64,000 nucleotides of DNA. Source: Streptomyces sclerotialus. GTDB lineage: Bacteria; Actinomycetota; Actinomycetes; Streptomycetales; Streptomycetaceae. The DNA lies in assembly GCF_040907265.1 (NCBI RefSeq), contig NZ_JBFOHP010000002.1, forward strand, positions 8,122,001-8,186,000. Direction: 5' to 3'. Below are positions 45,154 through 57,413 of the stretch, one piece after another. Position numbers and translations under genes: made by a program. Position 1 is the first letter of the stretch. Every line of letters begins with the position of its first letter. A model generated the notes under the pieces. The model was given only the letters and a program-made list of their open reading frames with translations. It was not told the origin of the DNA and did no database searches.

Positions 45154-45463
45154 GAGGTGACAGGTTAGCCGTATTCAGCCCCTTGCTCCGTGCCTCGGCG
45201 CCTGGGGCGGAATGACGGATTTCTGACTGACGTGGCGTCCGGCAGACAGGAAGGATCACGTCTGGCAGGGGCCGCCGGGCCGTCATGCACCGGGCCCCGC
45301 CGTTCTCCGTCCGTAACTGTTCTTCGAGCACCAGCGTTCATCATCAAGCACCAGCGCTCGTCATCGAGCACCAGCGTTGTCCGAGCACCAGCGTTCGTCA
45401 TTGAGCACCAAGGTTCGTCATCGACCACCGACAATTTTCGTCCACCGACCCAGGGAGCATCTG
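45154..45463. other. gene-free leader region upstream of the NlpC-like gene
   Basis: The 310-bp gap contains five copies of a 20-bp direct repeat (listed separately) close upstream of the secreted-protein gene. The remaining ~170 bp hold nothing I can assign. They must include the AraC gene's promoter on the minus strand. Confidence 0.5.
45325..45421. repeat. 20-bp direct repeat, 5 copies
   Basis: Units of the form cgagcaccagcgttcgtcat start at 45325, 45345, 45365 (17 bp, shortened), 45382 and 45402, with a degenerate start of a sixth at 45422. The array ends 43 bp before the TTG start codon of the secreted protein, in its leader or promoter. It could be a protein-binding array or a slippage product. 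Confidence 0.85.
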
Positions 45464-45988
45464 TTGATCACCCGACGTTCGGCCGCGCTCGTCGCGCTGG
45501 CCGTGGCTGCCGCCACGCTCGCCGCACCCAGCGCGCACGCCGCCGACGCCCCCGACACGTCCCTGCCTACTGCGGCGCCCACCATCACCCGCGCCGAAGT
45601 GCTGGCCCGTACGAAGTTCTGGTTCGATCGCCAGGTGCCCTACAGCCAGAAGCGCACCTACCCCGACCCGCAGGGCAGGCAGTACCGCACCGACTCCAGC
45701 GGCTACGCCTCGATGGCTCTGAAGCTGCCCACGCCCGGTTTCAACACCCAGGGTCTGGCCTCCCCGGCTGTCACCGAGAAGATCACCAAGGACCAGCTCC
45801 AGATCGGCGACCTGCTCCTCAACAAGAGCAAGCACGTCGTGATCTTCGCGGGGTGGGCAAACCCGGCCAAGACCAGGTACTGGACGTACGAGCAGACCCC
45901 GCCGCGCGTCAAGAACCGCACCGTTCCCTACCCCTACTTCGCGGGCAACGGGAAGTTCGAGCCCTACCGCTACAAGTACATCAAGTAG
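45464..45988 (+). CDS. secreted NlpC/P60-like protein with Ser at the catalytic Cys position
   Basis: A 174-residue protein starting at TTG 45464 (GGGAG 7 nt upstream). A Sec signal peptide is clear (TRRSAALVALAVAAATLAAP, then SAHA|AD). The mature part follows the actinobacterial NlpC/P60 pattern: FWFDRQVPYSQ, YRTDSSGYASMALKL, ITKDQLQIGDLLL, KHVVIFAGWAN, YWTYEQ, PYPYF, YRYKYIK. In active enzymes the block reads D-C-S-G-Y; here it reads D-S-S-G-Y, so the nucleophile is lost or changed to Ser, while the His block (KHVVIFAGW) remains. It may bind peptidoglycan without cutting it. Confidence 0.8.
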   Translation: MITRRSAALVALAVAAATLAAPSAHAADAPDTSLPTAAPTITRAEVLARTKFWFDRQVPYSQKRTYPDPQGRQYRTDSSGYASMALKLPTPGFNTQGLASPAVTEKITKDQLQIGDLLLNKSKHVVIFAGWANPAKTRYWTYEQTPPRVKNRTVPYPYFAGNGKFEPYRYKYIK

Positions 45989-46409
45989 CAGCCGCGACGA
46001 GCGGAACGCCGACTGCGGGGGCGACCTCTCGGCGCTCTTCACCTGACTGCTGACTACGGGAACCAACGCGATCGTGGTCGCCGGATCGGGCACGGACACG
46101 TGTCATCCGGCGACCACGAAGCCGCGAATCAGCCTGTCTCCCTTTGTCCGCCAGCCCTCCATGCGCCGCCTTACCGCGGCGCCCTGTCACTGTGTTCGCC
46201 TTGTCGCTGTGTTCGGTTCATTGACACCGGGTGAAGCGAACGGGTGCCGTGACGGCAGCCACAGGGTGTTCTGCACGCCACCCCGGACACGTAAGGGCAG
46301 GCATGAGCGTCAAGAGCGGCACCGTGACCACCGTCCGGGTACCGATTCCGGCCGAGGAGCTGGGCCCCGTGGCCGTCCACGACGCGATGAGTACGTACGT
46401 CAGCGCGGC
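45989..46409. other. intergenic region between converging genes, with a possible gene fragment
   Basis: This 421-bp gap has no complete gene. A short plus-strand frame from ATG 46304 (MSVKSGTVTTVRVPIPAEEL, then GPVAVHD) resembles the very start of phosphotriesterase-like proteins and then runs into the antisense of the next gene. It may be a gene relic, but the match is too short to claim. Confidence 0.4.
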
Positions 46410-47513
46410 TCAGGCTGCGTCGAGCTCCTTCAGCAGCTCGAAGGTGAGCGCGTCGACCGGGCGTGCTTCGGTCGCACTCTCCTGGCTGAAGGTGTTCACC
46501 ATCATCACCACCGCCGTTCCGCTTTCCCGGCTGAACGCGGCGCAGCTGCTGAATCCGCCGGTGCCGCCGTTGTGCCAGGTCATGGTGCGGCCCGTGGGCA
46601 GTGGGGCGAGGTGCCAGCCGAGCCCGATCCGCAGTCCGCTGCCGGAGTCGGTGAAGCGGGGGCGCTGGGTCAATTCGATCGCGGCCTGCAACGGCGAGTG
46701 CTTCGGGCGCAGTTGTGCCCCCAGAAACCTCAGCATGTCGTCGGCGGTGCTGTACATCGAGGTGCCGGCGGCGCTGAGCACGTGGTCGTGCCAGTCGGGC
46801 GCGGGCTCCCCGGCGAGATGACCGACGGCCTTACGCGCCGCCATGTCCGGCCGCAGCTTCGTCGTGGTGTCCGTCAGCCGGAGCGGCGACGCCACGTCCC
46901 GCCGCAGCATCGAGTCGACGTCGTCGAACGCCAGCGCCTGGCCGAGCAGCCCGAAACCCAGGTTCGAGTACGCGTACACGCTGCCCGGCTCGGTGCTCAG
47001 TTGGGTCTCGCGCAGACCGGCAGCCAGGTCGTCCAGCGTGTAGTGAGCGTAGGGGTCCTGCGGATCCGCGCCCTTGAGAAGGTTCGGCGGCAGCGAGGGC
47101 AGGCCGGAGGTGTGGGTCGCCAGATCGCCCAGTGTGATCCGCCGGGGACCCTTGCGCGGGATGCGGAACCGGGCAGGCAGGACGAGCGGCGCATCGAGGC
47201 GGGCCGTACCCGCGCATACGGCATGCGCGAGGGCGGTGGCGGTGAGCGTCTTGCTGATGGACCCGAGCTGGAACACCGTCCTGCTGTCCGGCGCCGGGCC
47301 GTCCGCGCTCCTCTTTCCGGCGCCCGCGACGTACCTGCGCCCGCCCTGTATCACTCCGCAGACCACGCCCGGACTGCCGGCGGCCAGCGCCCGGGCCAGG
47401 TAATGCCGCACCCGGCTGGGCAGACCGCCGCGCGCGGCGGCGGGTGTGGGCAGCAGCGGCAGGCCCGCTGCCGCTGCCGCTGTCGCTGTGATGAGAAAGG
47501 CCCGTCGGTTCAT
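46410..47513 (-). CDS. secreted beta-lactamase-fold serine hydrolase
   Basis: This 367-residue protein has a twin-Arg start (MNRRAFLITATAAAAAGLPL) typical of Tat export. The serine beta-lactamase/DD-peptidase motifs are present: S-x-x-K in FQLGSISKTLTA, Y-x-N in YAYSNLGFGLLG, and the third motif HNGGTGGFSS near the C-terminus. These class C-like hydrolases include esterases, D-aminopeptidases and DD-carboxypeptidases. True beta-lactam resistance cannot be deduced. An isolated gene with an upstream 16-bp palindrome. Confidence 0.88.
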   Translation of the reverse strand: MNRRAFLITATAAAAAGLPLLPTPAAARGGLPSRVRHYLARALAAGSPGVVCGVIQGGRRYVAGAGKRSADGPAPDSRTVFQLGSISKTLTATALAHAVCAGTARLDAPLVLPARFRIPRKGPRRITLGDLATHTSGLPSLPPNLLKGADPQDPYAHYTLDDLAAGLRETQLSTEPGSVYAYSNLGFGLLGQALAFDDVDSMLRRDVASPLRLTDTTTKLRPDMAARKAVGHLAGEPAPDWHDHVLSAAGTSMYSTADDMLRFLGAQLRPKHSPLQAAIELTQRPRFTDSGSGLRIGLGWHLAPLPTGRTMTWHNGGTGGFSSCAAFSRESGTAVVMMVNTFSQESATEARPVDALTFELLKELDAA

Positions 47514-47602
47514 GAGCGGTGGTTCCCCCGTCGTAGTGTCGGCCGAGTCCCTCCGGTCCCGGACTTCTCGAAGGAGCTCGCCAGCCAGGCCTCTGACATT
47601 AC

Positions 47603-47618
47603 GTTATTACGTAATAAC
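47603..47618. promoter_or_regulatory. perfect 16-bp AT-rich palindrome (GTTATTACGTAATAAC)
   Basis: The dyad stands out in very GC-rich surroundings. It lies 90 bp upstream of the beta-lactamase-fold gene and 69 bp past the end of the DUF4232 gene. Likely operator of a TetR/MarR/GntR-type repressor encoded elsewhere. Confidence 0.5.
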
Positions 47619-47686
47619 AGAGCAAGGGGGTGGCGGCGGCACCGCTTCCGCCCGGTCCGACCCGCCCGCTGATGCCTGCCCCGCGC

Positions 47687-48415
47687 TCACTCCTCCGGCG
47701 CGTTGACCGGGCCGACGAAGGTTCCCGGGCGGGTGGCGGCCGACTGGTCCAGCAGCGCGCCGCCGTACGGCCAGTCCAGCACGATGTTCCGGCGCTCGTT
47801 CGGCGGGGTGATGACCACCTGGTCCGGTGCGAACTTCCGGTCGTCGTCGCGGGTCGACGCCAGGAAGGTGATGTCGACGACGGCCTTCCCGCCGGCGTCG
47901 AGCCGGACCGGCTTCGGCTTGCCGTTGGTACGCCGCAGGTCCCAGGTTTCGCCGTGGGCGGTCCGGAGTTGGACGCCGGGGAAGCCGGCCATGGTGCAGT
48001 CGCTGGTGCCGGTGTTCGTGAGCACCACCCGGGCGGTCTGCTGCCCGTCGTACTCCATGTCCGGGCCGCCCTCGAAGTTCGACCACGCGGCCTTGAGGTG
48101 GTCGCTGGTGCAGTGGCTCGCCGACGTCGACGAAGAGTTGTCGGAGGTGCTGCCCGTCTTGGTGTCGACGGCCTTGCTGGAGCCGCCCGTGGATCCGCCG
48201 GTTCCTTCCGTGGACCCGCCGGAGCCACTGGAGGAACCACCGGAGCCGCCGGAGGAACCGCCCGAGTCGCTGGTCGAGGCGGCCGGAGACGAGCCTCCCT
48301 TGGCGTCGGTGCCGGTCCCGCCGCCTCCGCAGGCGGTGAGCGAGAACGCGGCAGCGGCGACCAGTGAGGCGGCGGCAACGGTGCGAGTGCGACGGAGAGC
48401 GGTCTTGCGCGACAT
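47687..48415 (-). CDS. DUF4232 lipoprotein
   Basis: This 242-residue protein has a lipobox signal (LVAAAAFSLTACGGGG). A long Gly/Ser/Thr linker with GSGG and EGTGG repeats follows. The C-terminal DUF4232 domain (CTSDHLKAAWSNFEGG, RVVLTNTGTSDCTMAGFPGV, VVDITFLASTRDDDRKFAPD, VITPPNERRN) is a beta sandwich with a paired Cys, common in actinobacterial surface lipoproteins. Function unknown. ATG 48415 has GGAGG close by. Confidence 0.85.
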   Translation of the reverse strand: MSRKTALRRTRTVAAASLVAAAAFSLTACGGGGTGTDAKGGSSPAASTSDSGGSSGGSGGSSSGSGGSTEGTGGSTGGSSKAVDTKTGSTSDNSSSTSASHCTSDHLKAAWSNFEGGPDMEYDGQQTARVVLTNTGTSDCTMAGFPGVQLRTAHGETWDLRRTNGKPKPVRLDAGGKAVVDITFLASTRDDDRKFAPDQVVITPPNERRNIVLDWPYGGALLDQSAATRPGTFVGPVNAPEE

Positions 48416-48505
48416 TCATTCCTCCAAGGGCGGGTGGTTGACGTGTGTGAGACAACTCTGTCCGCCGCCGCTGATGATCGACTAACTCGTGACTAACGCG
48501 TCGCT

Positions 48506-48561
48506 GGCGTGCGGCGTGCGGCGTGCGGCGTGCGGCGTGCAGGGACCCTGATTGATCAGGG
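48506..48561. repeat. 7-bp tandem repeat (ggcgtgc x5) with adjacent hairpin
   Basis: Five exact copies of ggcgtgc (48506-48540) are followed by CCCTGAT-TG-ATCAGGG (48546-48561), a 7-bp dyad. The dyad sits 8 bp past the LysE stop and may act as that gene's terminator. Confidence 0.7.
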
Positions 48562-48569
48562 AGCCGCGC

Positions 48570-49244
48570 TCAGCTCGCGATCGCGGTGCGGATACCCAGG
48601 GCGATCAGTACGGCTCCCGCCAGACGGCACATCCCCCGGCGGAACCGAGGAGTGCCGATCGTTGGGCGCGCGGCGGCGACCACAGACGTCCAGAACAGCA
48701 ACCACACCAGGACGACGACCACGTGCGCGACCGCAAGCGTCGCGATCTGCGGTGCGACGGGACGGCCGGCCGTGAGGAACTGCGGTACCAGGGTGAGATG
48801 GACCGAAGCCGCCTTGGGGTTGAGGACGTTGGACCACAGCCCCTGGCTGAAGCCCCCGAGCTGCGTCCAGGGCAGGCGCCATCGTCCCCGTACCGTCCGT
48901 TCAGCGCTTTTACCAACGTCTCGGTCAGCGTCTCGGTCAGCGCCTCGGTCAGCGTCTCGACGCGTCGAGCGCCACGTGGTCACGCCCAGCCAGATGAGAT
49001 AGATGCCGCCCAGGAGCTTCACTACCGTCAACGCCTGAGCCGACGACATGACCACGGCTGACAAGCCGATCGCGGCGAACGCCGCGTGTACCAGGAGCCC
49101 GCACGCCGAGCCGAATGCGGCGCGTACACCGTCGGACCGCGACCCAGCGATCACCTGCTGCGTGACGAGGGTGAAACTGGTGCCGGGAATCAACGTGAGG
49201 GGTGTGACTGCGGCGACGAAGCCGAGTACCTGGTGCCACTGCAC
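48570..49244 (-). CDS. LysE/RhtB-family amino-acid exporter
   Basis: This 224-residue membrane protein has the LysE/RhtB layout: N-terminal FVAAVTPLTLIPGTSFTLVT (GP-like first helix), TVVKLLGGIYLIWLGVTTWR, a polar loop, then SNVLNPKAASVHLTLVPQFL and three further helices. The polar loop contains a 12-bp tandem repeat giving DADRGADRDADRD, an expansion not needed for the fold. It likely exports amino acids or related metabolites. Confidence 0.85.
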   Translation of the reverse strand: MQWHQVLGFVAAVTPLTLIPGTSFTLVTQQVIAGSRSDGVRAAFGSACGLLVHAAFAAIGLSAVVMSSAQALTVVKLLGGIYLIWLGVTTWRSTRRDADRGADRDADRDVGKSAERTVRGRWRLPWTQLGGFSQGLWSNVLNPKAASVHLTLVPQFLTAGRPVAPQIATLAVAHVVVVLVWLLFWTSVVAAARPTIGTPRFRRGMCRLAGAVLIALGIRTAIAS

Positions 49245-49329
49245 ACCACGAGCCTATGCAGTGCGGCCCGCCACGTCACCCGTTCTCCGTCGATGACCAC
49301 TCAGCAGAACACCAGGGGAGGAGTCACAC

Positions 49330-50526
49330 ATGGGCGCACACACGCAGGACACGGCCAAGAGGCTGCGAATGATCACCGACGAGCTGTCGGACCGCTTCTA
49401 CGAGCGGGCCGACGTGATACGGACGCTGGTGGTGACCCTCCTGGCAGGGCAGCACTCGCTGGTGCTCGGCCCGCCCGGTACGGCGAAGTCCGAGATGGCC
49501 CGGGAGCTCACGGGCCGGATCGAGGGGGCGGCCTACTGGGAGATCCTGCTGTCGAAGTTCACCGCGCCGACGAGGATGTTCGGCCCCGTCGACGTCGCCG
49601 CGCTGGCCCGGGGTGAGTACCGGCAGGTCTACGACGGCCGTGCCACGACCGCGCACGTCGCGTTCATCGACGAGATCTTCAAGTGCTCCACGGCGGCACT
49701 GAACGAGACGCTGGGTTACCTCAACGAGCGGATCTACCACCCCGAGAGCGGCGGTGAGCCGATCCGCTGCCCCCTGATCGGAGCCATCACGGCGAGCAAC
49801 GAACTGCCCAGCGGGGAGGATTCGGCCGCGATCTACGACCGGCTGCTGGTCCGGATCGAGGTCGGCTACCTGGAAGATCCGTCGAACTTCGCCGCGCTCG
49901 TCCGCTCCGCCGTCAGCCGCCCCGCGCCACCGGCACGGACCACCGTCGAGCTGGCCGCGTTGCAGTACGCCGTGACGGACGCCGTCCCGGCCGTGGACGT
50001 CCCCGACGCGATCGTGGATGCGGTGTGTACGCTGCGGGCCGCCCTGCGGCGCAAGGAACTCGTCGCCTCCGACCGCCGCTGGAGACAGGCGGTGGGCCTG
50101 CTCCAGGCGTCCGCGTACCTCGACGGCCGTCCGGCGGTCGCCGAGTCCGACCTGTCGGTGCTGACCCACGTCCTGTGGAATTCCCCCGCCGAACGCCCCA
50201 CCGTCGAACGCGAGGTGCTGCAACTGGTCAATCCCGACGCCAAGGAGGCGCTCGACCTGGCCGACGCCATCGAGGAGCTGGAGGCCCAGCTCGACGCCAT
50301 GGCGGGGCAGTCCCGCGAGGCGCTGAGCGAGTGGGTCATCAAGAATGCCCACAGTAAGCTCGCCAAGGCCGGGCAGCGGCTGGAGAAACTGCGCGCGGAG
50401 GCAGCGGGCGCCGGCCGCTCCACCGCCGCCATCGACCGCGTCACCGGCCGCCACCGCGCCGTCCGTGCCCGCGTGCTCACCGAGGCCCTCGGCGTGGACG
50501 CGAGCACGGTGCAGGCCCAGCTCTGA
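49330..50526 (+). CDS. MoxR-family AAA+ ATPase (RavA-like)
   Basis: A 398-residue ATPase with Walker A GPPGTAKS (47-54), Walker B VAFIDEIFK (about 110-118), sensor 1 in ITASNELPSGED and an Arg-rich lid region. The spacing matches MoxR/RavA proteins, which work with VWA-domain partners to remodel complexes. The C-terminal 130 residues are helical and specific to this type (EALDLADAIEELEAQLDAMA). The partner VWA gene follows 19 bp later. TIR-WD40 and SLATT-like genes come next, so this is likely part of a conflict system. Confidence 0.88.
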   Translation: MGAHTQDTAKRLRMITDELSDRFYERADVIRTLVVTLLAGQHSLVLGPPGTAKSEMARELTGRIEGAAYWEILLSKFTAPTRMFGPVDVAALARGEYRQVYDGRATTAHVAFIDEIFKCSTAALNETLGYLNERIYHPESGGEPIRCPLIGAITASNELPSGEDSAAIYDRLLVRIEVGYLEDPSNFAALVRSAVSRPAPPARTTVELAALQYAVTDAVPAVDVPDAIVDAVCTLRAALRRKELVASDRRWRQAVGLLQASAYLDGRPAVAESDLSVLTHVLWNSPAERPTVEREVLQLVNPDAKEALDLADAIEELEAQLDAMAGQSREALSEWVIKNAHSKLAKAGQRLEKLRAEAAGAGRSTAAIDRVTGRHRAVRARVLTEALGVDASTVQAQL

Positions 50527-50545
50527 ACACCGGGGGAGCATGACC

Positions 50546-52213
50546 ATGACCATGCGTAAGACACCGAGCGGGCTCGACGAGCCGGCGGGCCGGGCAGGGA
50601 AGTGGCTGGGGCCGGCCGCCGGCGCGCCCGAGCGGCACGCCTCGGCCGTGGTCGCGGACCGGTTCGACCAGCTCACGTGGCGCGACACCTACGAGCAGTC
50701 GGCCGGGCTGCGCGAGCTGGCCGAGGAGCTGAACGCTCGGTACGCCTGCGCCACCGACCTTCTGACCGATGTGTTCCTGGCCGCCTACAAGGCCGCCCCA
50801 CGGTTGCGCGGGCGCGCCGAGATGGACCCCGCCCGGCTGGTCAGCCACGAGATCGTCACCGCGCTGGTGGAGTCACCGGAATTCGCCGAACTGCACCGGG
50901 AGACAGCCGGCGACCCTTACGCCGCCGCCATGGCCGTACTCGCCCAGGCCCCCGCGCTGCGTCGGATGCTGGAACGCTTCCGAGACGCCCAGGAACGGGC
51001 CGAGCAGGCGAAGAAGGCTCAGCAGGCCGCCGACCGCGCGGCGACCGTCGTAGGCGAGGCGCTCCAGCTGACCGCCGACGCGGCCGACGCGGCCGACGCG
51101 TCCGACGCATCCGACAAGGACGGCACCGCGCCGCCCCCGGCCGACGAGAACGGCACCGCCGCCGAGCGCGCCGAGGCCGCAGCGCAGCAGGCCGCTCAGG
51201 GTGCCGCGCAGGCCCTCGCGGCGTTGGCCCCCGGTATCCGTGCCACCGCGCGGAACGCGGTGGCGAAGGCCGCCGGGACCGTGCGGGAAGAGGCCGCGCT
51301 GATGCGCGCATGGGGCGTTGGTTCCGGCGAGCTGGAGCGGATGCCGTTCGACCGGCGCGCCCGGCTCGCGGAACGGCTGCGGACCGGCCGACTCGCTCAG
51401 TGGGCCGAGCTGATCGGCCGTTTCCGGCAGATGGCCAGTGGTGAGCGCGCCCGTAAGGTGGAGAACGCCGCCGGCGAGCTGGTCGGGGTCACGCTCGGCG
51501 ATGACCTCTCCCGCGTGATCCCCTCCGAGCTGGCCAACCTCGGCCTGCCCGAGACGCGTGCGGTGTTCGCCGCGCGCTACGCCGCCGGAGAGCTGATGCT
51601 CTACGACAGTCAGGGGGAGCAGACCACCGGTCAGGGCGCCATCATCGCGTGCGTCGACACCTCGCATTCCATGTACGAGGCAGGTCCCGGCGGAGTCACC
51701 CGGGAAGCGTGGGCCAAGGCGTGTGCCCTGGCACTGCTGGATCAGGCCCGCCACGCGCGGCGCGACTTCATCGGCATCCTCTTCTCCGCCGCCGACAAGA
51801 TCCAGATCCACCGCTTCCCGGCCGACCCGGCCCATCCGCCCCACCCGGCCGACGGACCTGCCGGCATCGCCCGGACCCTCGACTTCGCGGAGGCCTTCCT
51901 CGGCGGCGGCACCAGCTACCAGAGGCCCCTGACAGCCGCCGCGGATCTGCTGGAGGAGGAGTACGACAACGCCGCCCGCACGCGCGGCGACATCGTGATG
52001 CTCACCGACGACGAATGCGACGTCACCGAGGAATGGATGCGCGGCTGGAACGACGCCAAGCACCGGCTGGGCTTCCGCGTCTTCGGCGTGGCCATCGGAG
52101 CCCCGAGGGCCGCCGAAGCCGGCTCGGTCCTGGAGGCCCTGTGCGACAACCTCCGCTCCATCGAGGACTTCACCGATGTCCACGCCGCCGCCGACCTCTT
52201 CCGCGTGATCTGA
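50546..52213 (+). CDS. VWA-domain protein (ViaA-like partner of MoxR)
   Basis: A 555-residue protein. The N-terminal ~370 residues are helical with an Ala-rich middle (ADAADAADASDASD, a small tandem repeat). The C-terminal von Willebrand A domain has the MIDAS start IIACVDTSHSMYE (D-x-S-x-S), then GGGTSYQRPL (Thr) and VMLTDDECDVTEEW (Asp). This is the RavA/ViaA arrangement. Three in-frame ATGs (50540, 50546, 50552) are close; the second has the best distance to GGGGGAG. A terminator follows at 52244. Confidence 0.85.
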   Translation: MTMRKTPSGLDEPAGRAGKWLGPAAGAPERHASAVVADRFDQLTWRDTYEQSAGLRELAEELNARYACATDLLTDVFLAAYKAAPRLRGRAEMDPARLVSHEIVTALVESPEFAELHRETAGDPYAAAMAVLAQAPALRRMLERFRDAQERAEQAKKAQQAADRAATVVGEALQLTADAADAADASDASDKDGTAPPPADENGTAAERAEAAAQQAAQGAAQALAALAPGIRATARNAVAKAAGTVREEAALMRAWGVGSGELERMPFDRRARLAERLRTGRLAQWAELIGRFRQMASGERARKVENAAGELVGVTLGDDLSRVIPSELANLGLPETRAVFAARYAAGELMLYDSQGEQTTGQGAIIACVDTSHSMYEAGPGGVTREAWAKACALALLDQARHARRDFIGILFSAADKIQIHRFPADPAHPPHPADGPAGIARTLDFAEAFLGGGTSYQRPLTAAADLLEEEYDNAARTRGDIVMLTDDECDVTEEWMRGWNDAKHRLGFRVFGVAIGAPRAAEAGSVLEALCDNLRSIEDFTDVHAAADLFRVI

Positions 52214-52243
52214 CCCGGCCTCTGCCCTCCACCGCAACTCCGC

Positions 52244-52267
52244 AGGCGGGCTTTTTCGGGCCCGCCT
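52244..52267 (+). terminator. rho-independent-like hairpin after the VWA gene
   Basis: AGGCGGGC (52244-52251) and GCCCGCCT (52260-52267) pair perfectly around a T-rich loop. It lies 31 nt past the VWA stop. It may separate the MoxR-VWA unit from the TIR-WD40 unit. Confidence 0.6.
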
Positions 52268-52365
52268 CCTCAGGCCGGCCTCTTCCCCCTCCAGCCCCGC
52301 TCTGCCAATCTGTCGGCAGCACCTGACTGATCGGTGGACACAGCAGCTTCCGGGAGTCCGGCACC

Positions 52366-55300
52366 GTGGTGAAGGCACCTCGTTTCCTGGTCCCACGCCG
52401 ATTACCCAGCGACGGACTTCCTGTCTCCGGCGAGGGACGTCCCGTGGTCGCCGAGGGACGCCGTGGCGCCGACGACGGACGCCGTGGCGCCGACGACCGG
52501 CTTCCTGCCGTGCCGGGGGAGGCCGACGGCCGGTACGCGTACGACGCCTTCATCTCGTACAGCAGGGCCGCCGACGGTGAACTGGCCCGCGGTATCCAGC
52601 ACGGTCTGCACGCGTTCGCCAAGCCGTGGTACCGGCTGCGTGCCCTGCGGGTGTTCCGGGACGAGGGCAGCCTGGCCGCGAGCTCCCAGCTGTGGACCTC
52701 CCTCCAGGAAGCGATGGACGATTCGCGCTTCTTCATCCTCCTGGCCTGCGAACAGTCGGCCCGGGCGCCCTGGGTCGAGCAGGAGGTCGAGTACTGGTGC
52801 ACCCACCGGGGCGTCGACAACCTCGTCATCGTCCTCACCGACCCGCCGCCCGACGGCAGCCGTCAGCCGCCCGGTATGGCCTGGGACGCTGCCCAGGGCG
52901 ATTTCGACTGGCGGCGCACGACAGCGCTGCCGAGATGTCTGTCGGGCCGCTTCCGGGAGGAGCCCAACGCGGTACTCCTGGGGTGGGCCCGTACCAGGCC
53001 GGAACTGTCGCTGCGGGACCCGGAGTTCCGCAGCGCTGTAGCTGCCCTGGCGGCCCCGCTGCACGGTGTCGCCAAGGACAGGCTGATCGGCGAGGACGTA
53101 CGCCAGCACCGCAGGACGCGGCGCCACGTGCTGCTGACGACCGCCGTCCTGGCCGCACTCGCCGTGATCGCCGCACTCGCCGCCGTGACCGCTGTGCAGC
53201 AGCGGAACACGGCGCGGAACCAGACAGCGCTCGCCGAAGTCCGCCAGTACGCGGCGCAGTCCAGCAACGCCACCGACCCCTACACGGCACTCGCCTACGC
53301 CATCGCGGCCGAACAGCGCATCACCCCGCCCCTCGCCGAGGCTCGTGCCGCGTTCACGGCAGCCGTACGGGACCTCGGCTCGTGGCGGGCGCGACTGGTC
53401 GGCGAAGTTCCCGTGAGGTCCGTCTTCGAACCCGCGCTGCGGTGGTCCCCGGACGGTAGGCGGCTGTGGCTGGCCGACGAGACCGGGGGAGTGGCCCACT
53501 GGAACGTGCGGGAGGGCAGGAGCGTCGTCACGTACCGGGAACCCTCCGAGCTCAGGATCGACCGGATGACTCCCCTGTCCGTCCAGTGGAGCGGGAACGG
53601 CCGGTCACTGCTGCTGACCCATAAAGGGTCCGTGGAGGGCCCGCCCGCCTACGCCGTACGCGACAACGTCTCCGGCGAAGTCACCGCGGGCCCGCACGTG
53701 CTGCCGGAGGAGTCCCCGCAGCACACGGTCTCCGACATGCAGCTCTCACCCCGGGGAGACACGCTTGCCGTGGCCTCGCAACGGGAGGGCATCAGCCTGT
53801 GGAACGTCAGGACCGGCCGACTGCTCCAGAAGGGGCTGCGCCCCCCGTCGCGCTCCGAGGAGAGGATCCACGATCTGACCTGGTCGCCCGACGGCCGGTT
53901 CCTGTACTCCCGTACCTGGGAGTCTTTCGAGATACGGGACGTCCGGCGGGGCAGGCTCCTGTGGTCCGAGCGGGCGGGGCGCGACCTCTTGGCGCCGTCC
54001 TGGTCGCCGGACAGCCGCCGGATCGCCATCGGCACCAGGGACGGGCGTATCACGTGGCGGGACGGGCGGACGGGCGAGGTCCTGGCATCGTCGTCCGAGC
54101 GGCTCGGCGACGGCGTCAAGGAGATCAGCTGGTCGCCCGACGGCACCCGGGTGGCCGCGGCCGACTTCGCCGGGACCGTCCGGCTGTGGGATGCGGGCAC
54201 GGGTGAAGCAGTCGGTGAGGCGCTCGGCCGGGACAGCAACCGCCTGCTCACCGGTGGGCTCGCCTGGTCTCCCGACGGCCGGTCCCTGGCGGGCGTGTTC
54301 GTCAGCGACGCTTCGGACGGCCGGAACGGACCGGCCAGGTCAGTGGTGCGGCTATGGGAGGTCGCGCCCCCGTCGCCCGACCAGGCCCGGCTGTCCGGGC
54401 CCACCGAGGCCATCCGCTCCGTGGCCTGGTCACCGGACGGCCGCCATATCGCCGGCGGCAGCGGTGACGGCACCGTGTGGGTCTGGGATCCCCGTACGGG
54501 CAGACCCGTCCTCGACAGCCCGGAACGGCCGCGGCGGCCGGGGGACGACGTCATGGCCGTCGTATGGGATCCGAAAGGCCGCCAGCTGCTGAGGGTCGGT
54601 CAGGACGGGCTGCTGCCACGTTCGGTGTCCGAGGCGCGCCGCGGCGTACGCGCCGACGGCCGCGGTGCGACCACCGACGGGCACTGGTGGGGCAGCGGAG
54701 GCGCGCTCGCCGCCGCCTGGTCCCCGGACGGTACGCGCGTCGCTTCGGGAACGCGCCGCGGCACGGTCCGGATCTGGGACGCCGCCACCGGAAAACCGAC
54801 GCGCCGACAACCGCGGGACGCCACCGCGAGCAGCGAGACACAGACAGGCAGCGAGACACAGACAAGCAGCGAGGCACAGACAAGCAGCGAGACACAGGCG
54901 AGCAGCGGCACGCAGTCGAGCAGCGAGACACGAACGAGCGGCGGCGCGCAGTCGAGCGGCGGCGCGCAGTCGAGCGGCGGGGAACAGGCGAACGGTGAGG
55001 CGGAGGACACTGAGCAGACGGTACGTTCCGTGGCGTGGTCCCACGACAGCCGACACGTGGCCGCCGTACTGCCGGACGGCTCGCTGCACCTCTGGGACGC
55101 GGCGAGCGGACAGCCCTGGGGCGCCGCCCCGAAGGCCTCCCGGCATCTGGCACGCAGCATGGCCTGGTCGCCGGACGGCAAGCTGATCGCCGTCGGCGGG
55201 GTGGACGGCACCATCCGTCTGTGGAACGGCGAGACCGGTACTCCACTGCCGGGCGTCCGCACGTCCGGTGACGCCTCCGTCGAGGCGCTCGCCTGGTCCC

Positions 55301-55665
55301 CGGACTCCACGCGGCTGGCCGCGGGCGACGGCGCAGGGACGATCCGCTGGTGGGAACCGCGCCGCAACGTACCACCGCAGCTGCGGGAGAAGGCGCACGA
55401 CGGGACTGTCACGTCGCTGAGCTGGTCCCCGGACGGCACCCGGCTGGTCAGCGGCGGCGCGGACGGGGAGGTACGGCTCTGGCAGGGAAGCACCGAACGG
55501 GACCTGTGCCGACTGGTCGACGCGGCACTGCACCGCACCCGGAGCACCCCTGCCCTGACCGGCGCCACCGGTGTCGCCGTCCGAACCTGCGCCGACCCGT
55601 CACGCATCCGCGACCATCCGGTCCTACCGATCCAGCCGCACACGATCGAGGTGAGCAGACCATGA
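52366..55665 (+). CDS. TIR-transmembrane-WD40 repeat protein
   Basis: A 1099-residue protein. After a Pro/Arg linker with a GRRGADD repeat, residues ~57-200 form a TIR domain (YAYDAFISYSRAADGELARG, VFRDEGSLAASSQLW, WVEQEVEYW; Glu140 fits the NAD-cleaving Glu). One membrane helix lies at ~254-276 (VLLTTAVLAALAVIAALAAV). Residues ~330-1050 are WD40-like blades (SVAWSPDGRHIAGGSGDGTV, then WVWDPRTG, and similar), interrupted by a Ser/Gln/Thr-rich tract. Similar TIR-WD40 proteins act in bacterial signalling or immunity, with the propeller sensing a target. GTG 52366 has GGGAG upstream. Its stop overlaps the next gene (ATGA). Confidence 0.88.
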   Translation: MVKAPRFLVPRRLPSDGLPVSGEGRPVVAEGRRGADDGRRGADDRLPAVPGEADGRYAYDAFISYSRAADGELARGIQHGLHAFAKPWYRLRALRVFRDEGSLAASSQLWTSLQEAMDDSRFFILLACEQSARAPWVEQEVEYWCTHRGVDNLVIVLTDPPPDGSRQPPGMAWDAAQGDFDWRRTTALPRCLSGRFREEPNAVLLGWARTRPELSLRDPEFRSAVAALAAPLHGVAKDRLIGEDVRQHRRTRRHVLLTTAVLAALAVIAALAAVTAVQQRNTARNQTALAEVRQYAAQSSNATDPYTALAYAIAAEQRITPPLAEARAAFTAAVRDLGSWRARLVGEVPVRSVFEPALRWSPDGRRLWLADETGGVAHWNVREGRSVVTYREPSELRIDRMTPLSVQWSGNGRSLLLTHKGSVEGPPAYAVRDNVSGEVTAGPHVLPEESPQHTVSDMQLSPRGDTLAVASQREGISLWNVRTGRLLQKGLRPPSRSEERIHDLTWSPDGRFLYSRTWESFEIRDVRRGRLLWSERAGRDLLAPSWSPDSRRIAIGTRDGRITWRDGRTGEVLASSSERLGDGVKEISWSPDGTRVAAADFAGTVRLWDAGTGEAVGEALGRDSNRLLTGGLAWSPDGRSLAGVFVSDASDGRNGPARSVVRLWEVAPPSPDQARLSGPTEAIRSVAWSPDGRHIAGGSGDGTVWVWDPRTGRPVLDSPERPRRPGDDVMAVVWDPKGRQLLRVGQDGLLPRSVSEARRGVRADGRGATTDGHWWGSGGALAAAWSPDGTRVASGTRRGTVRIWDAATGKPTRRQPRDATASSETQTGSETQTSSEAQTSSETQASSGTQSSSETRTSGGAQSSGGAQSSGGEQANGEAEDTEQTVRSVAWSHDSRHVAAVLPDGSLHLWDAASGQPWGAAPKASRHLARSMAWSPDGKLIAVGGVDGTIRLWNGETGTPLPGVRTSGDASVEALAWSPDSTRLAAGDGAGTIRWWEPRRNVPPQLREKAHDGTVTSLSWSPDGTRLVSGGADGEVRLWQGSTERDLCRLVDAALHRTRSTPALTGATGVAVRTCADPSRIRDHPVLPIQPHTIEVSRP
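54829..54990 (+). repeat. short tandem repeats in the WD40 gene (SSETQ tract)
   Basis: Multiples of 15-18 bp such as agcagcgagacacag and agcggcggcgcgcag repeat about nine times, encoding SSETQT, SSEAQT, SSGGAQ. The tract keeps frame and inserts a flexible loop between two propeller blades. Confidence 0.75.
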
Positions 55666-56297
55666 CGCGCTACGCCCCCAGTGCCCGGCGGCCCCCGGGC
55701 CGTTCACTCCCGTTGTGCCTCTCCGTACTTCTCCCGCTCCTCGCAAGCCTGCTCATCGCCGGATGCGGCAGCTCCGAGGAGAGCGACGCCTCGAAGGCCG
55801 GCAACCGCTCCGGCCAGAGCTCCGCGACGGCCCCGGGCAAGGAAACCTCACCGGACGAGCCCGGTACGCCGGAGGGAACACCACTGGCGGACACGGACTG
55901 GGCCGCCGCCATCGACGACATCGACTGCACCGGCGCGGGCAACGAAGGGATCGAGATCCTCAACACCTGGTTCGCCGATGTCCGCGGTACGGGAGTGCCC
56001 GACGCCTTCGTCTCGTTCACCTGCCGCCACCAAGCGTCCACGTTCCCGCAGCAGTTGGAGGTGTACGACGGCTCTTCGTCCCCGGAAGCGCCCGAGCGTA
56101 TCGCGGTACTCCTCAGCGCCGAGGAGAAGGCGAACGGCCCTGGACCGAGGGTGGGCGACATCTCCTTCTCCGGCAGGTCCGTCACCCTGAGCCTTGCCGC
56201 CTACACCCCTGACGACGCCTTCTGCTGCCCCTCCTTGCGGCTGGAGCGCACCTTCACCTGGAACGGCGAAAAGTTCGAACGAGAGGCGAAGCCGTAA
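55662..56297 (+). CDS. lipoprotein of the TIR-WD40 locus
   Basis: This 211-residue protein has a lipobox signal (VLLPLLASLLIAGCGSS, lipidated Cys about 35), then a polar linker and a compact domain with paired Cys (DDIDCTGAGNEGIEILNTWF, FVSFTCRHQASTFPQ, DDAFCCPSLRLERTFTW). It resembles secreted actinobacterial LppP/LprE-like proteins. Its ATG overlaps the TIR-WD40 stop, so the two are co-translated. It could be the outside sensor or a partner of that membrane protein. Confidence 0.75.
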   Translation: MTRYAPSARRPPGRSLPLCLSVLLPLLASLLIAGCGSSEESDASKAGNRSGQSSATAPGKETSPDEPGTPEGTPLADTDWAAAIDDIDCTGAGNEGIEILNTWFADVRGTGVPDAFVSFTCRHQASTFPQQLEVYDGSSSPEAPERIAVLLSAEEKANGPGPRVGDISFSGRSVTLSLAAYTPDDAFCCPSLRLERTFTWNGEKFEREAKP

Positions 56298-56436
56298 GAC
56301 GCGCCTCGACCCGCTACTGGAAGAGTTCGCGGGACAGGGACACCCAGACACGGACACCCAGCAGGTGCACCGTCTGCGATCATGTGGCTTCGGCGGCCGA
56401 GCGGGTGGACCGGTGAATCCACCGAACGGGGGAGCA

Positions 56437-57312
56437 ATGCCTGAGTACCAGGACTTTCCAGCGCTCTTCAGAGCAGCAGACGCCAACTCCCTCAAAGGGC
56501 AACGGCGTTACCTGCGTGCGACCAAGTGCCAGCTGGGGGCGCTGGTCGCCGCGGCCGCGCTGGGCGTGTTCAGCTGGCAGGTCAACGGAGCTGACCTCGC
56601 CGCCGCCGCGTCAGTGGTGGCCTTCTGCGCGGCCGTCGTCACCGAGGTGTACCTGCTCAAGGAACGCCCGGACCGCATCTGGTACGAGGGGCGCGCGGTC
56701 GCCGAGTCGGCGAAGACGCTCACCTGGCGCTACATGGTCGGCGGTAGTCCGATGGGCACCGAGGAGACCCCGACCGAAACCGCTGCCGAGCTGCTGCTGA
56801 CCCGGTTCACGGAGATCGAGGCCGACGTCGAGGCCGCCTGGCTCGTCCCCGTCGAGGGCACCCCTGAGCAGGTCACCACGGAGATGACGCGGGTGCGACA
56901 ACTGTCCCTGGACGAACGCCGGGCGATCTACCTGCGGGAGCGTATCGAGAACCAGCGTGAGTGGTACGGCACCAAGTCGCGGTGGAACGAGCGCAGAAGC
57001 ACCACCTGGGCGCTCACCCTCACGGTGCTCGAACTGCTCGGGGTCTGCGCAGGTGTCGCGAAGGTGACGGGCGTCATCGACGTGGACCTCCTCGGCGTGT
57101 GCGCGGCCGTCGCCGCGGGCGGCACCGCGTGGGTGCAGACCAAGCAGCACAAGACCCTCGCCGTCGCGTACGCCGTCGCCCGGCACGAGCTGGCGACGAT
57201 CGCCTTCCGCGCCCAACGGCCGGTCACCGAGGCGGAATGGGCGACCTTCGTGGCGAACGCCGAGGACGCCGTCTCGCGCGAACACACCCTGTGGCGCGCT
57301 TCCCACATGTGA
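56437..57312 (+). CDS. DUF4231 (SLATT-like) membrane protein
   Basis: This 291-residue protein has two pairs of membrane helices: LGALVAAAALGVFSWQV and AAAASVVAFCAAVVTEVYLL, then WALTLTVLELLGVCAGVAKV and VDLLGVCAAVAAGGTAWVQT. A charged helical region lies between the pairs. Its order matches DUF4231 proteins, related to SLATT effectors that associate with nucleotide-signalling and TIR/SLOG conflict systems. ATG 56437 is preceded by GGGGGAG. With the TIR-WD40 gene upstream, a pore-forming effector role is a fair inference. Confidence 0.78.
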   Translation: MPEYQDFPALFRAADANSLKGQRRYLRATKCQLGALVAAAALGVFSWQVNGADLAAAASVVAFCAAVVTEVYLLKERPDRIWYEGRAVAESAKTLTWRYMVGGSPMGTEETPTETAAELLLTRFTEIEADVEAAWLVPVEGTPEQVTTEMTRVRQLSLDERRAIYLRERIENQREWYGTKSRWNERRSTTWALTLTVLELLGVCAGVAKVTGVIDVDLLGVCAAVAAGGTAWVQTKQHKTLAVAYAVARHELATIAFRAQRPVTEAEWATFVANAEDAVSREHTLWRASHM

Positions 57313-57413
57313 GGGCCCACATGTGAGGGCCCATATGTGAGGGCCCATATGAGAGGCGCGCCTCCCGCATGCGAGGGCCCATATGTGAGGGCGCGCTTCC
57401 CGCATGCGAGGCG
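57305..57413. repeat. 14-bp repeat array at the end of the DUF4231 gene
   Basis: The unit acatgtgagggccc starts at 57305 (holding the stop codon TGA), is repeated exactly at 57319 and with one change at 57333. Two longer, diverged units with inserted cgcgc-type pieces follow, to 57413. Adjacent GGGCCC and CATATG palindromes are produced. Confidence 0.8.

Follow-up and report, generated by a model that had tools for sequence, protein, structure and literature searches.

A predicted TIR receptor, lipoprotein and tandem SLATT cassette beside a separate MoxR-VWA gene pair in Streptomyces sclerotialus

Most known bacterial TIR immune systems sense their cues inside the cell, and nucleotide-signal conflict systems with SLATT proteins were reportedly described by Burroughs et al. 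in 2015. SLATT has been predicted as a membrane effector regulated by ADP-ribose derivatives in conflict systems (Iyer et al. 2022, PMC9503650). In Thoeris, a TIR protein (ThsB) works with an effector (ThsA), which includes a TM-macro form (TM, transmembrane), so that a TIR signal acts on a membrane effector (PMC11204291). Toll-like receptors are single-span proteins with the TIR domain inside and a repeat sensor outside the cell (PMC7075850). Finally, in MoxR-vWA-beta-propeller ternary systems a VWA gene adjoins that of a bpMoxR-type ATPase with the GxxxTAKS variant of the P-loop (Kaur et al. 2020, PMC7159879). We analysed a 64,000-nucleotide stretch of the S. sclerotialus genome (the window), in which a MoxR-VWA pair is followed by a three-gene cassette for a TIR-TM-WD40 protein, a lipoprotein and a tandem SLATT protein. 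We propose, with moderate confidence, that the cassette encodes an envelope-sensing TIR receptor whose NAD-derived signal would open the SLATT effector, and that the MoxR-VWA pair is a separate unit. The genome has 8.28 Mb in two contigs; the window is C2:8122001-8186000, with about 83 kb between the cassette and the end of the contig. The features, in window positions, are:

49330-50526, plus strand: MoxR-clade AAA+ ATPase, RavA-like (Pfam bpMoxR, PDB RavA 3nbx); neighbour outside the cassette
50540-52213, plus strand: VWA co-chaperone, ViaA-like, with a MIDAS-type DTSHS (VWA_2); MoxR partner, outside the cassette
52245-52266, plus strand: hairpin GGCGGGC...GCCCGCC with a 7 bp stem, seen in the sequence; possible terminator between the units
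52272-57314 (about), plus strand: three-gene cassette, delimited by the DNA that S. violens and S. niger share with it (blastn)
52366-55665, plus strand: TIR-TM-WD40 receptor-like protein, GTG start (TIR_2, WD40-type propeller models)
54827-54980, plus strand: 18/36-bp tandem repeat that adds a stretch rich in Ser/Thr/Gln between blades of the propeller; the S. violens and S. niger copies mostly have gaps there
55662-56297, plus strand: lipoprotein, lipobox LIAGC with Cys35 (signal segment, weak LppP/LprE match)
56437-57312, plus strand: tandem SLATT_3 and SLATT_1 protein (DUF4231), 291 aa (Pfam); predicted membrane effector

The first-pass annotation of this DNA had read the five genes as one candidate conflict system. 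Its gene order was borne out, the five genes following one another on the plus strand with coordinates and Pfam domain matches in agreement. The MoxR and VWA genes are 13 nt apart, and the stop of the TIR gene overlaps the start of the lipoprotein gene (ATGA), which confirms the coupling of these two that had been noted. A gap of 152 nt, holding the hairpin, separates the VWA and TIR genes, and 139 nt lie between the lipoprotein and SLATT genes; coupling is therefore evident in the sequence only for MoxR-VWA and for TIR-lipoprotein. The hairpin, which was missed by a terminator scan, lies just outside the DNA common to the S. violens and S. niger copies of the cassette.

Linkage between the two sets of genes was looked at from both sides by six-frame profile and tblastn searches; gene calls in the relatives were crude (GC-frame), so neighbour lists may miss genes. 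The TIR loci numbered 85 (14 plus 71 named loci), or 82 after three duplicates were removed. VWA was found in none of the 85, 10 of the 71 named loci being under 10 kb and hence short in flanks, and MoxR in none apart from a distant ATPase in one of them (L132, E 1e-8). Conversely, neither a receptor-type TIR domain nor SLATT was found in the 16 VWA loci (about 20 kb each). When 150 Streptomyces genomes (our own and 149 others) were searched, TIR homologues (E <= 2e-28) occurred in 10 other genomes; 4 of these 10 had VWA sequence, intact in G118 and G136 and as fragments in G066 and G070, and the nearest VWA lay about 145 kb from a TIR gene. Among the 8 other genomes with TIR-SLATT, both MoxR and VWA were present only in G629, a draft that has them on contigs C47 and C28 and TIR-SLATT on C3; neither was found within 20 kb around that TIR gene. 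No linkage of MoxR-VWA to TIR-SLATT was seen in 8/8 other pair-bearing genomes, the outcome named beforehand as speaking against a single system, and the only place found where it adjoins TIR/SLATT genes is the window itself. Besides the ATPase of L132, three kinds of match were left out of these counts: a weak VWA-like piece of 43 residues in S. sp. A012304 (G635, E 5e-9), weak matches to MoxR (24-33% identity) in G064, G066, G118 and G136, and, in L137 and in L148, one local match each to the whole TIR-WD40 protein, the TIR domain itself matching neither.

The comparison with S. violens is, at the level of DNA, the clearest single case for two units. S. violens aligns to the window at 45204-45990 and 52272-57314, in pieces of 80-90% identity, and has about 350 bp in place of the 6.3-kb block at 45991-52271, which contains a beta-lactamase-like gene, a minus-strand lipoprotein-like gene, LysE, MoxR and VWA. 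Neither MoxR nor VWA had a match in the S. violens genome. One five-gene conflict system, in which MoxR-VWA would set the threshold of the TIR-propeller/SLATT module as in the ternary systems, would explain why all five genes are adjacent on one strand and why the ATPase matches bpMoxR, a model named for those systems, and carries their GxxxTAKS P-loop variant (PMC7159879). Against the linkage counts (0/85 and 0/16), the location of MoxR-VWA and TIR-SLATT on different contigs in G629, the S. violens cassette without the block and a VWA protein without a propeller, this explanation appears very improbable. Because linkage fails in both directions, the locus most probably consists of two unrelated units side by side, the MoxR-VWA pair and the three-gene cassette. 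Of the system first proposed, the TIR-TM-propeller, lipoprotein and SLATT unit stands and the membership of MoxR-VWA is withdrawn, so that no false five-gene system is catalogued. In the same alignment, a small secreted-protein-like gene (45377-45988), with a weak NlpC/P60 match below the cut-off, directly flanks the cassette in S. violens and lies 6.3 kb off in the window.

The cassette block was met in three chromosomal settings, the window, S. violens and S. niger, as pieces of 77-91% identity (blastn) with different flanks. In S. niger it spans L064 9815-14520, and its neighbour genes differ from those in S. violens and the window. The homology begins about 80-95 nt 5' of the TIR start codon, and its other end falls no more than about 15 nt from the stop of SLATT. 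No mobile-element gene was recognised at the edges, no search aimed at such genes having been made. Gene content, TIR-lipoprotein coupling and the three settings, as read from the DNA, suggest that the cassette is a real, mobile three-gene unit with sharp edges. At its 3' edge, 14-bp and 35-bp tandem repeats run from the end of the SLATT gene (57302-57411).

The receptor-like protein consists of a TIR domain (residues about 59-205; TIR_2, 34 bits in Pfam), a single TM segment (255-273) and one or more WD40-type propellers (about 346-1045), matched by many propeller models. Glu140, which had been singled out in the first-pass annotation, is the E of a WVxxE motif, and both it and D99 are invariant in 92/92 aligned TIR domains. 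A structural model of the domain has the TIR fold, with NADase TIRs, SPARTA and SARM1 as top structural matches. It could be argued that the domain is only a scaffold that recruits SLATT or other partners by contact and leaves NAD+ unused; the conservation of the WVxxE Glu and D99 and the NADase company of the model make this improbable, and the TIR domain is better read as a predicted NADase. One hydrophobic segment follows the TIR domain in 83 of 88 proteins, none being found in the other 5, and lysine and arginine are commoner on the TIR side in 73 of these 83. By this positive-inside count, the TIR domain is predicted inside and the propeller outside the cell. No other TIR-TM-WD40 gene was found in the window's own genome, where another TIR match (C2:103474) was not matched by the receptor TIR profile, and the TIR domain had no match in phage records at E 1e-5.

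The lipoprotein has a hydrophobic signal segment (16-34) that leads to the lipobox with Cys35, and it matches Pfam Lipoprotein_21 (LppP/LprE) at 19.1 bits, under the cut-off of 25. Its family is rare: at least 11 proteins including the window's (E <= 0.001) among the 7991 candidates, out of 5.8 billion, that shared the most words, and the seven of them named by organism come from Streptomyces (6) and Streptantibioticus (1). Among 392 Streptomyces genomes, the window and G086 alone had full-length matches. In 93 others the matches were weaker (E 3e-11 to 1e-3) and fell on related lipoproteins or on signal segments; 18 of these loci were fetched and had no TIR or SLATT in their flanks (up to about 1.5 kb per side). 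The SLATT protein matches SLATT_3 (158 bits), SLATT_1 (128 bits) and DUF4231 in Pfam, and is therefore a tandem of two SLATT domains. It has four hydrophobic segments and a predicted structure that is mostly helical, in agreement with the four-helix SLATT-like/DUF4231 protein recognised at first; a pore is a plausible function. No convincing solved structure was found for it by sequence search.

Next, we looked at how constantly SLATT accompanies TIR. SLATT adjoins TIR in 6 of the 82 non-duplicate loci (L035, L063, L064, L069, L070 and L072), in three gene orders: TIR, lipoprotein, SLATT; a divergent pair; and SLATT before TIR. On a tree of the 92 TIR domains the SLATT label (7 rows including the window) needs 4 changes, gains or losses, that are forced by supported branches. 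None of 500 shuffles was as low, near-copies of the window clade aiding the clustering; the label is unsure for L096, which is cut about 900 nt upstream of the TIR ORF (open reading frame). In a search of 297 genomes that started from SLATT, the two new genomes of highest identity (64% and 44%) had TIR adjoining. With the genomes of another SLATT search included, TIR was adjacent at identities of at least 43% in 6 of 7 genomes (our own, G086, G077, G064, G629 and G523; not G118). Among plasmids, 80 records had a SLATT match; in the three regions looked at, from Rhodococcus, Vibrio and Rhizobium, the tandem SLATT proteins are distant (29-37% identity) and a TIR gene adjoins in 3/3, two of these three TIRs matching ThsB_TIR. 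One could suppose that TIR and lipoprotein form the gene pair and that SLATT is a frequent passenger, as its presence at so few TIR loci and the 139 nt before it in the window would allow. This seems quite unlikely, since no SLATT match at a TIR locus is more than 750 nt away from the TIR ORF, there are three gene orders with at least four changes on the tree, and SLATT also pairs with unrelated TIR genes on the plasmids. Recurring in separate TIR lineages, in several gene orders and on plasmids, TIR and SLATT appear to belong together. Three features of a TIR-SLATT conflict module were found for the cassette: the catalytic Glu, a SLATT membrane protein and conserved adjacency.

Other partners recur beside TIR-TM-WD40 genes. 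A second lineage has its own lipoprotein gene directly 5' of TIR, as follows:

L037:12709-13434, L044:10886-11593, L045:10969-11676, L120:15749-16459 and L122:7966-8670: second lipoprotein family, directly upstream of TIR

In 392 genomes, a profile from these five matched strongly 8 times (over nearly the full length in 7, in two pieces in G383), with TIR adjoining in 8/8; four of the eight (G246, G274, G284, G383) come from genomes outside the profile, and 18 further genomes gave weak partial matches only. Homology of the window lipoprotein to that of the second lineage was considered and not borne out: the mature parts are not detectably related, and the profiles align only over the signal segment and cross-match marginally (E >= 0.002). 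A further family, P0012, was met on an S. cynarae plasmid, where a gene for a membrane protein of 213 aa (L226:4327-4968) precedes TIR; the protein had no Pfam match at E 0.01. Its relatives lie within 2.2 kb of the TIR gene, in mixed orientation, in 19 of the 82 loci:

L037, L038, L039, L040, L045, L081, L094, L095, L098, L102: P0012 relatives, first ten
L104, L110, L114, L117, L120, L122, L124, L127, L131: P0012 relatives, the rest

None was found in 17 control loci or in the window. Those in L038, L045 and L081 seem to be without a TM part, and the 19 loci do not overlap with the 6 SLATT loci. P0012 is possibly a main effector or partner of TIR-TM-WD40 receptors. Moreover, on an S. longwoodensis plasmid a protein with two TM segments and CyanoTRADDas_TM (L225:3988-4683) precedes the TIR-TM-WD40 gene. 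This recurrence of small membrane proteins by TIR-TM-WD40 genes supports a membrane step downstream of TIR.

We then compared rates of change as the ratio of nonsynonymous to synonymous substitution rates (dN/dS), each pair of values being for the window against S. violens and against S. niger. The ratio was 0.15 and 0.12 for the TIR domain and 0.61 and 0.81 for the propeller at residues 346-600, with similar dS, and 0.25-0.34 for later propeller parts. It was 0.18 and 0.20 for SLATT_3, 0.15 and 0.07 for SLATT_1, and 0.22 and 0.34 for the mature lipoprotein. In sliding windows it peaked at 1.05 and 0.98 at TIR-WD40 residues 451-550, values near 1 being no proof of positive selection. In 10 other TIR-TM-WD40 pairs the TIR domain had 0.14-0.28 and the first propeller part 0.37-0.75, the propeller being higher in 10/10. 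Speed alone does not mark the sensor, because the N-terminal 58 residues of the TIR protein (0.85-0.86) and the signal and linker of the lipoprotein (0.59-0.70) are also fast.

In the mechanism that we propose, a cell-surface cue (phage, toxin or envelope damage) would be sensed by the propeller and the lipoprotein, which likely lies on the outer face together with the propeller. The TIR domains would cluster and cut NAD+ to an ADP-ribose-type signal, and this signal would open the SLATT protein, disturbing the membrane and leading to growth arrest or cell death. Such an order, from sensing outside through a TIR signal to a membrane effector, is the best supported of those we can infer. The recurrent TIR-SLATT pairing, the invariant Glu140 and the rate contrast, with the TIR fold of the model, are consistent with it; the transfer of the signal from TIR to SLATT and the defence role remain putative steps. 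An action of a TIR signal on a membrane effector has a precedent in TM-macro Thoeris (PMC11204291). The two share a logic of two components, in which a TIR protein makes the signal and the effector, in some cases a membrane protein, is encoded separately (PMC11204291); the effector here is SLATT and the window TIR scores 14.1 bits (E 0.062) against ThsB_TIR, below the cut-off of 21.2. No SIR2-SLOG or TM-macro domain was among the Pfam matches of the lipoprotein, the SLATT protein and the N-terminal part of the TIR protein (for TIR-WD40, the best 25 of 41 matches), and no Thoeris model of PADLOC-DB matched. The predicted TIR-SLATT neighbourhoods of firmicute phages likewise have a TIR gene beside a gene for a SLATT protein with two TM segments (PMC9503650). 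The window differs from them by a TIR receptor with TM segment and propeller, by a tandem SLATT protein and by a co-encoded lipoprotein. A published description of the TIR-lipoprotein-SLATT set was not found, subscription literature being outside the search, and we regard the cassette as a new variant of the predicted TIR-SLATT modules.

Phage defence would be the favoured role, judging from the company that these families keep and from mobility. A non-immune role must be weighed against it, in which the cassette would be a receptor for envelope stress or cell-cell recognition, the propeller and lipoprotein sensing cell-wall, antibiotic or kin signals and TIR-SLATT adjusting membrane permeability or development. 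The predicted outside sensor, its co-translated surface lipoprotein and a window without defence-island context would suit it well; the TIR catalytic Glu kept in 92/92, the prediction of SLATT as a conflict effector (PMC9503650) and a patchy mobile distribution with a fast sensor, which we take as more typical of conflict genes, make it doubtful. Several observations nevertheless weigh against the receptor-effector mechanism and its defence role. The window is in no obvious defence island, and PADLOC-DB gave no useful system: its matches were confined to mads_8, weakly hit by MoxR (E 0.007), and HEAT-ARM_XIII, cross-matched by the propeller (E 3e-18, residues 877-1044). Plant and animal adaptor TIRs score only slightly below the NADase TIRs in the structural comparison, and a fold search of the PDB with the modelled SLATT structure gave no match at E <= 0.001. 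SLATT stands beside only the six TIR-TM-WD40 loci, neither it nor P0012 being present in 57/82, and the window lipoprotein family adjoins TIR in only 2/82 other loci. At SLATT identities of 41% or less, TIR lay within 1.5 kb in 0/30 fetched loci, and G118 has a same-clade SLATT without an adjoining TIR-TM-WD40 gene, the nearest being about 17 kb away. The 139-nt gap before SLATT would leave room for a separate promoter. Finally, relaxed constraint, or a surface sensor without an immune role, would also explain a fast propeller, rates having been compared among TIR-TM-WD40 proteins only.

In G118 (L219:4559-9039) the tandem SLATT gene is preceded by that for a 275-aa protein with an NPNVFYEL-type motif, which we take to be DrHyd/TIR-like; Pfam gave no match. 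The same locus adjoins a NACHT-pentapeptide protein with a weak Mrr_cat match. SLATT would here accompany a different predicted nucleotide enzyme.

With its predicted TIR domain inside and repeat sensor outside a single-span membrane protein, the receptor is laid out like animal Toll-like receptors (PMC7075850). It differs in that its TIR domain is N-terminal and not C-terminal, that the sensor is a WD40 propeller and not leucine-rich repeats, and that it has a membrane-protein partner; the resemblance is of layout only. A broader reading, which we put forward tentatively and with less confidence than the proposal for the cassette itself, is that TIR-TM-propeller proteins are widespread outside-sensing Toll-like receptors, in which a fast outer propeller would drive the TIR NADase and, through it, exchangeable small membrane effectors. 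These would be tandem SLATT or the P0012 type with one or two TM segments (the latter at 19/82 loci), and two lineages or more would add a surface lipoprotein. On this reading the window has a compact and mobile version made of three genes. Since known bacterial TIR systems mostly sense inside the cell, sensing from the outside in would be new in principle. If true, bacteria would possess an outside-sensing TIR receptor of Toll-like-receptor layout paired with a membrane effector. The cassette is 5.0 kb long and self-contained, with a single obvious catalytic residue, and can therefore be transferred to a laboratory Streptomyces and tested directly.

Concerning the neighbouring pair, MoxR scored 151.5 bits with Pfam bpMoxR, also matching AAA_5, and its Walker A is GPPGTAKS at residue 47. 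It resembles RavA (PDB 3nbx, E 2e-46; NCBIfam RavA, 179.2 bits for a cut-off of 681). In the VWA protein, VWA_2 (32.6 bits, residues 369-491 of 557) is the sole Pfam domain; the ViaA model gave 52.8 bits for a cut-off of 500, and there was no PDB match at E 0.01. The pair thus shares with RavA-ViaA the adjacent ATPase and VWA genes, the RavA similarity and a weak ViaA similarity, but both scores are far under the NCBIfam equivalog cut-offs. Membership of the ternary systems was also considered. The bpMoxR-type ATPase, with a P-loop matching GxxxTAKS, and the adjoining VWA gene agree with the published description (PMC7159879), whereas the VWA protein, with VWA_2 only, is without a propeller, and membership was rejected on this ground. 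Nor was a linked third component with TPR and propeller seen, the TIR-propeller gene being absent at 16/16 other VWA loci. MoxR is directly beside VWA in 15 of the 16 loci, the 16th being a VWA fragment, and no other neighbour family occurred in more than 4 of 17 loci with the crude gene calls. The pair is probably a stand-alone RavA/ViaA-like chaperone pair. In the 150 genomes, VWA matches occurred in 30 others, 12 of which had only pieces, that of G099, at 27% identity, being maybe unrelated. The pair appears scattered in Streptomyces, and these pieces look as if it had often been lost.

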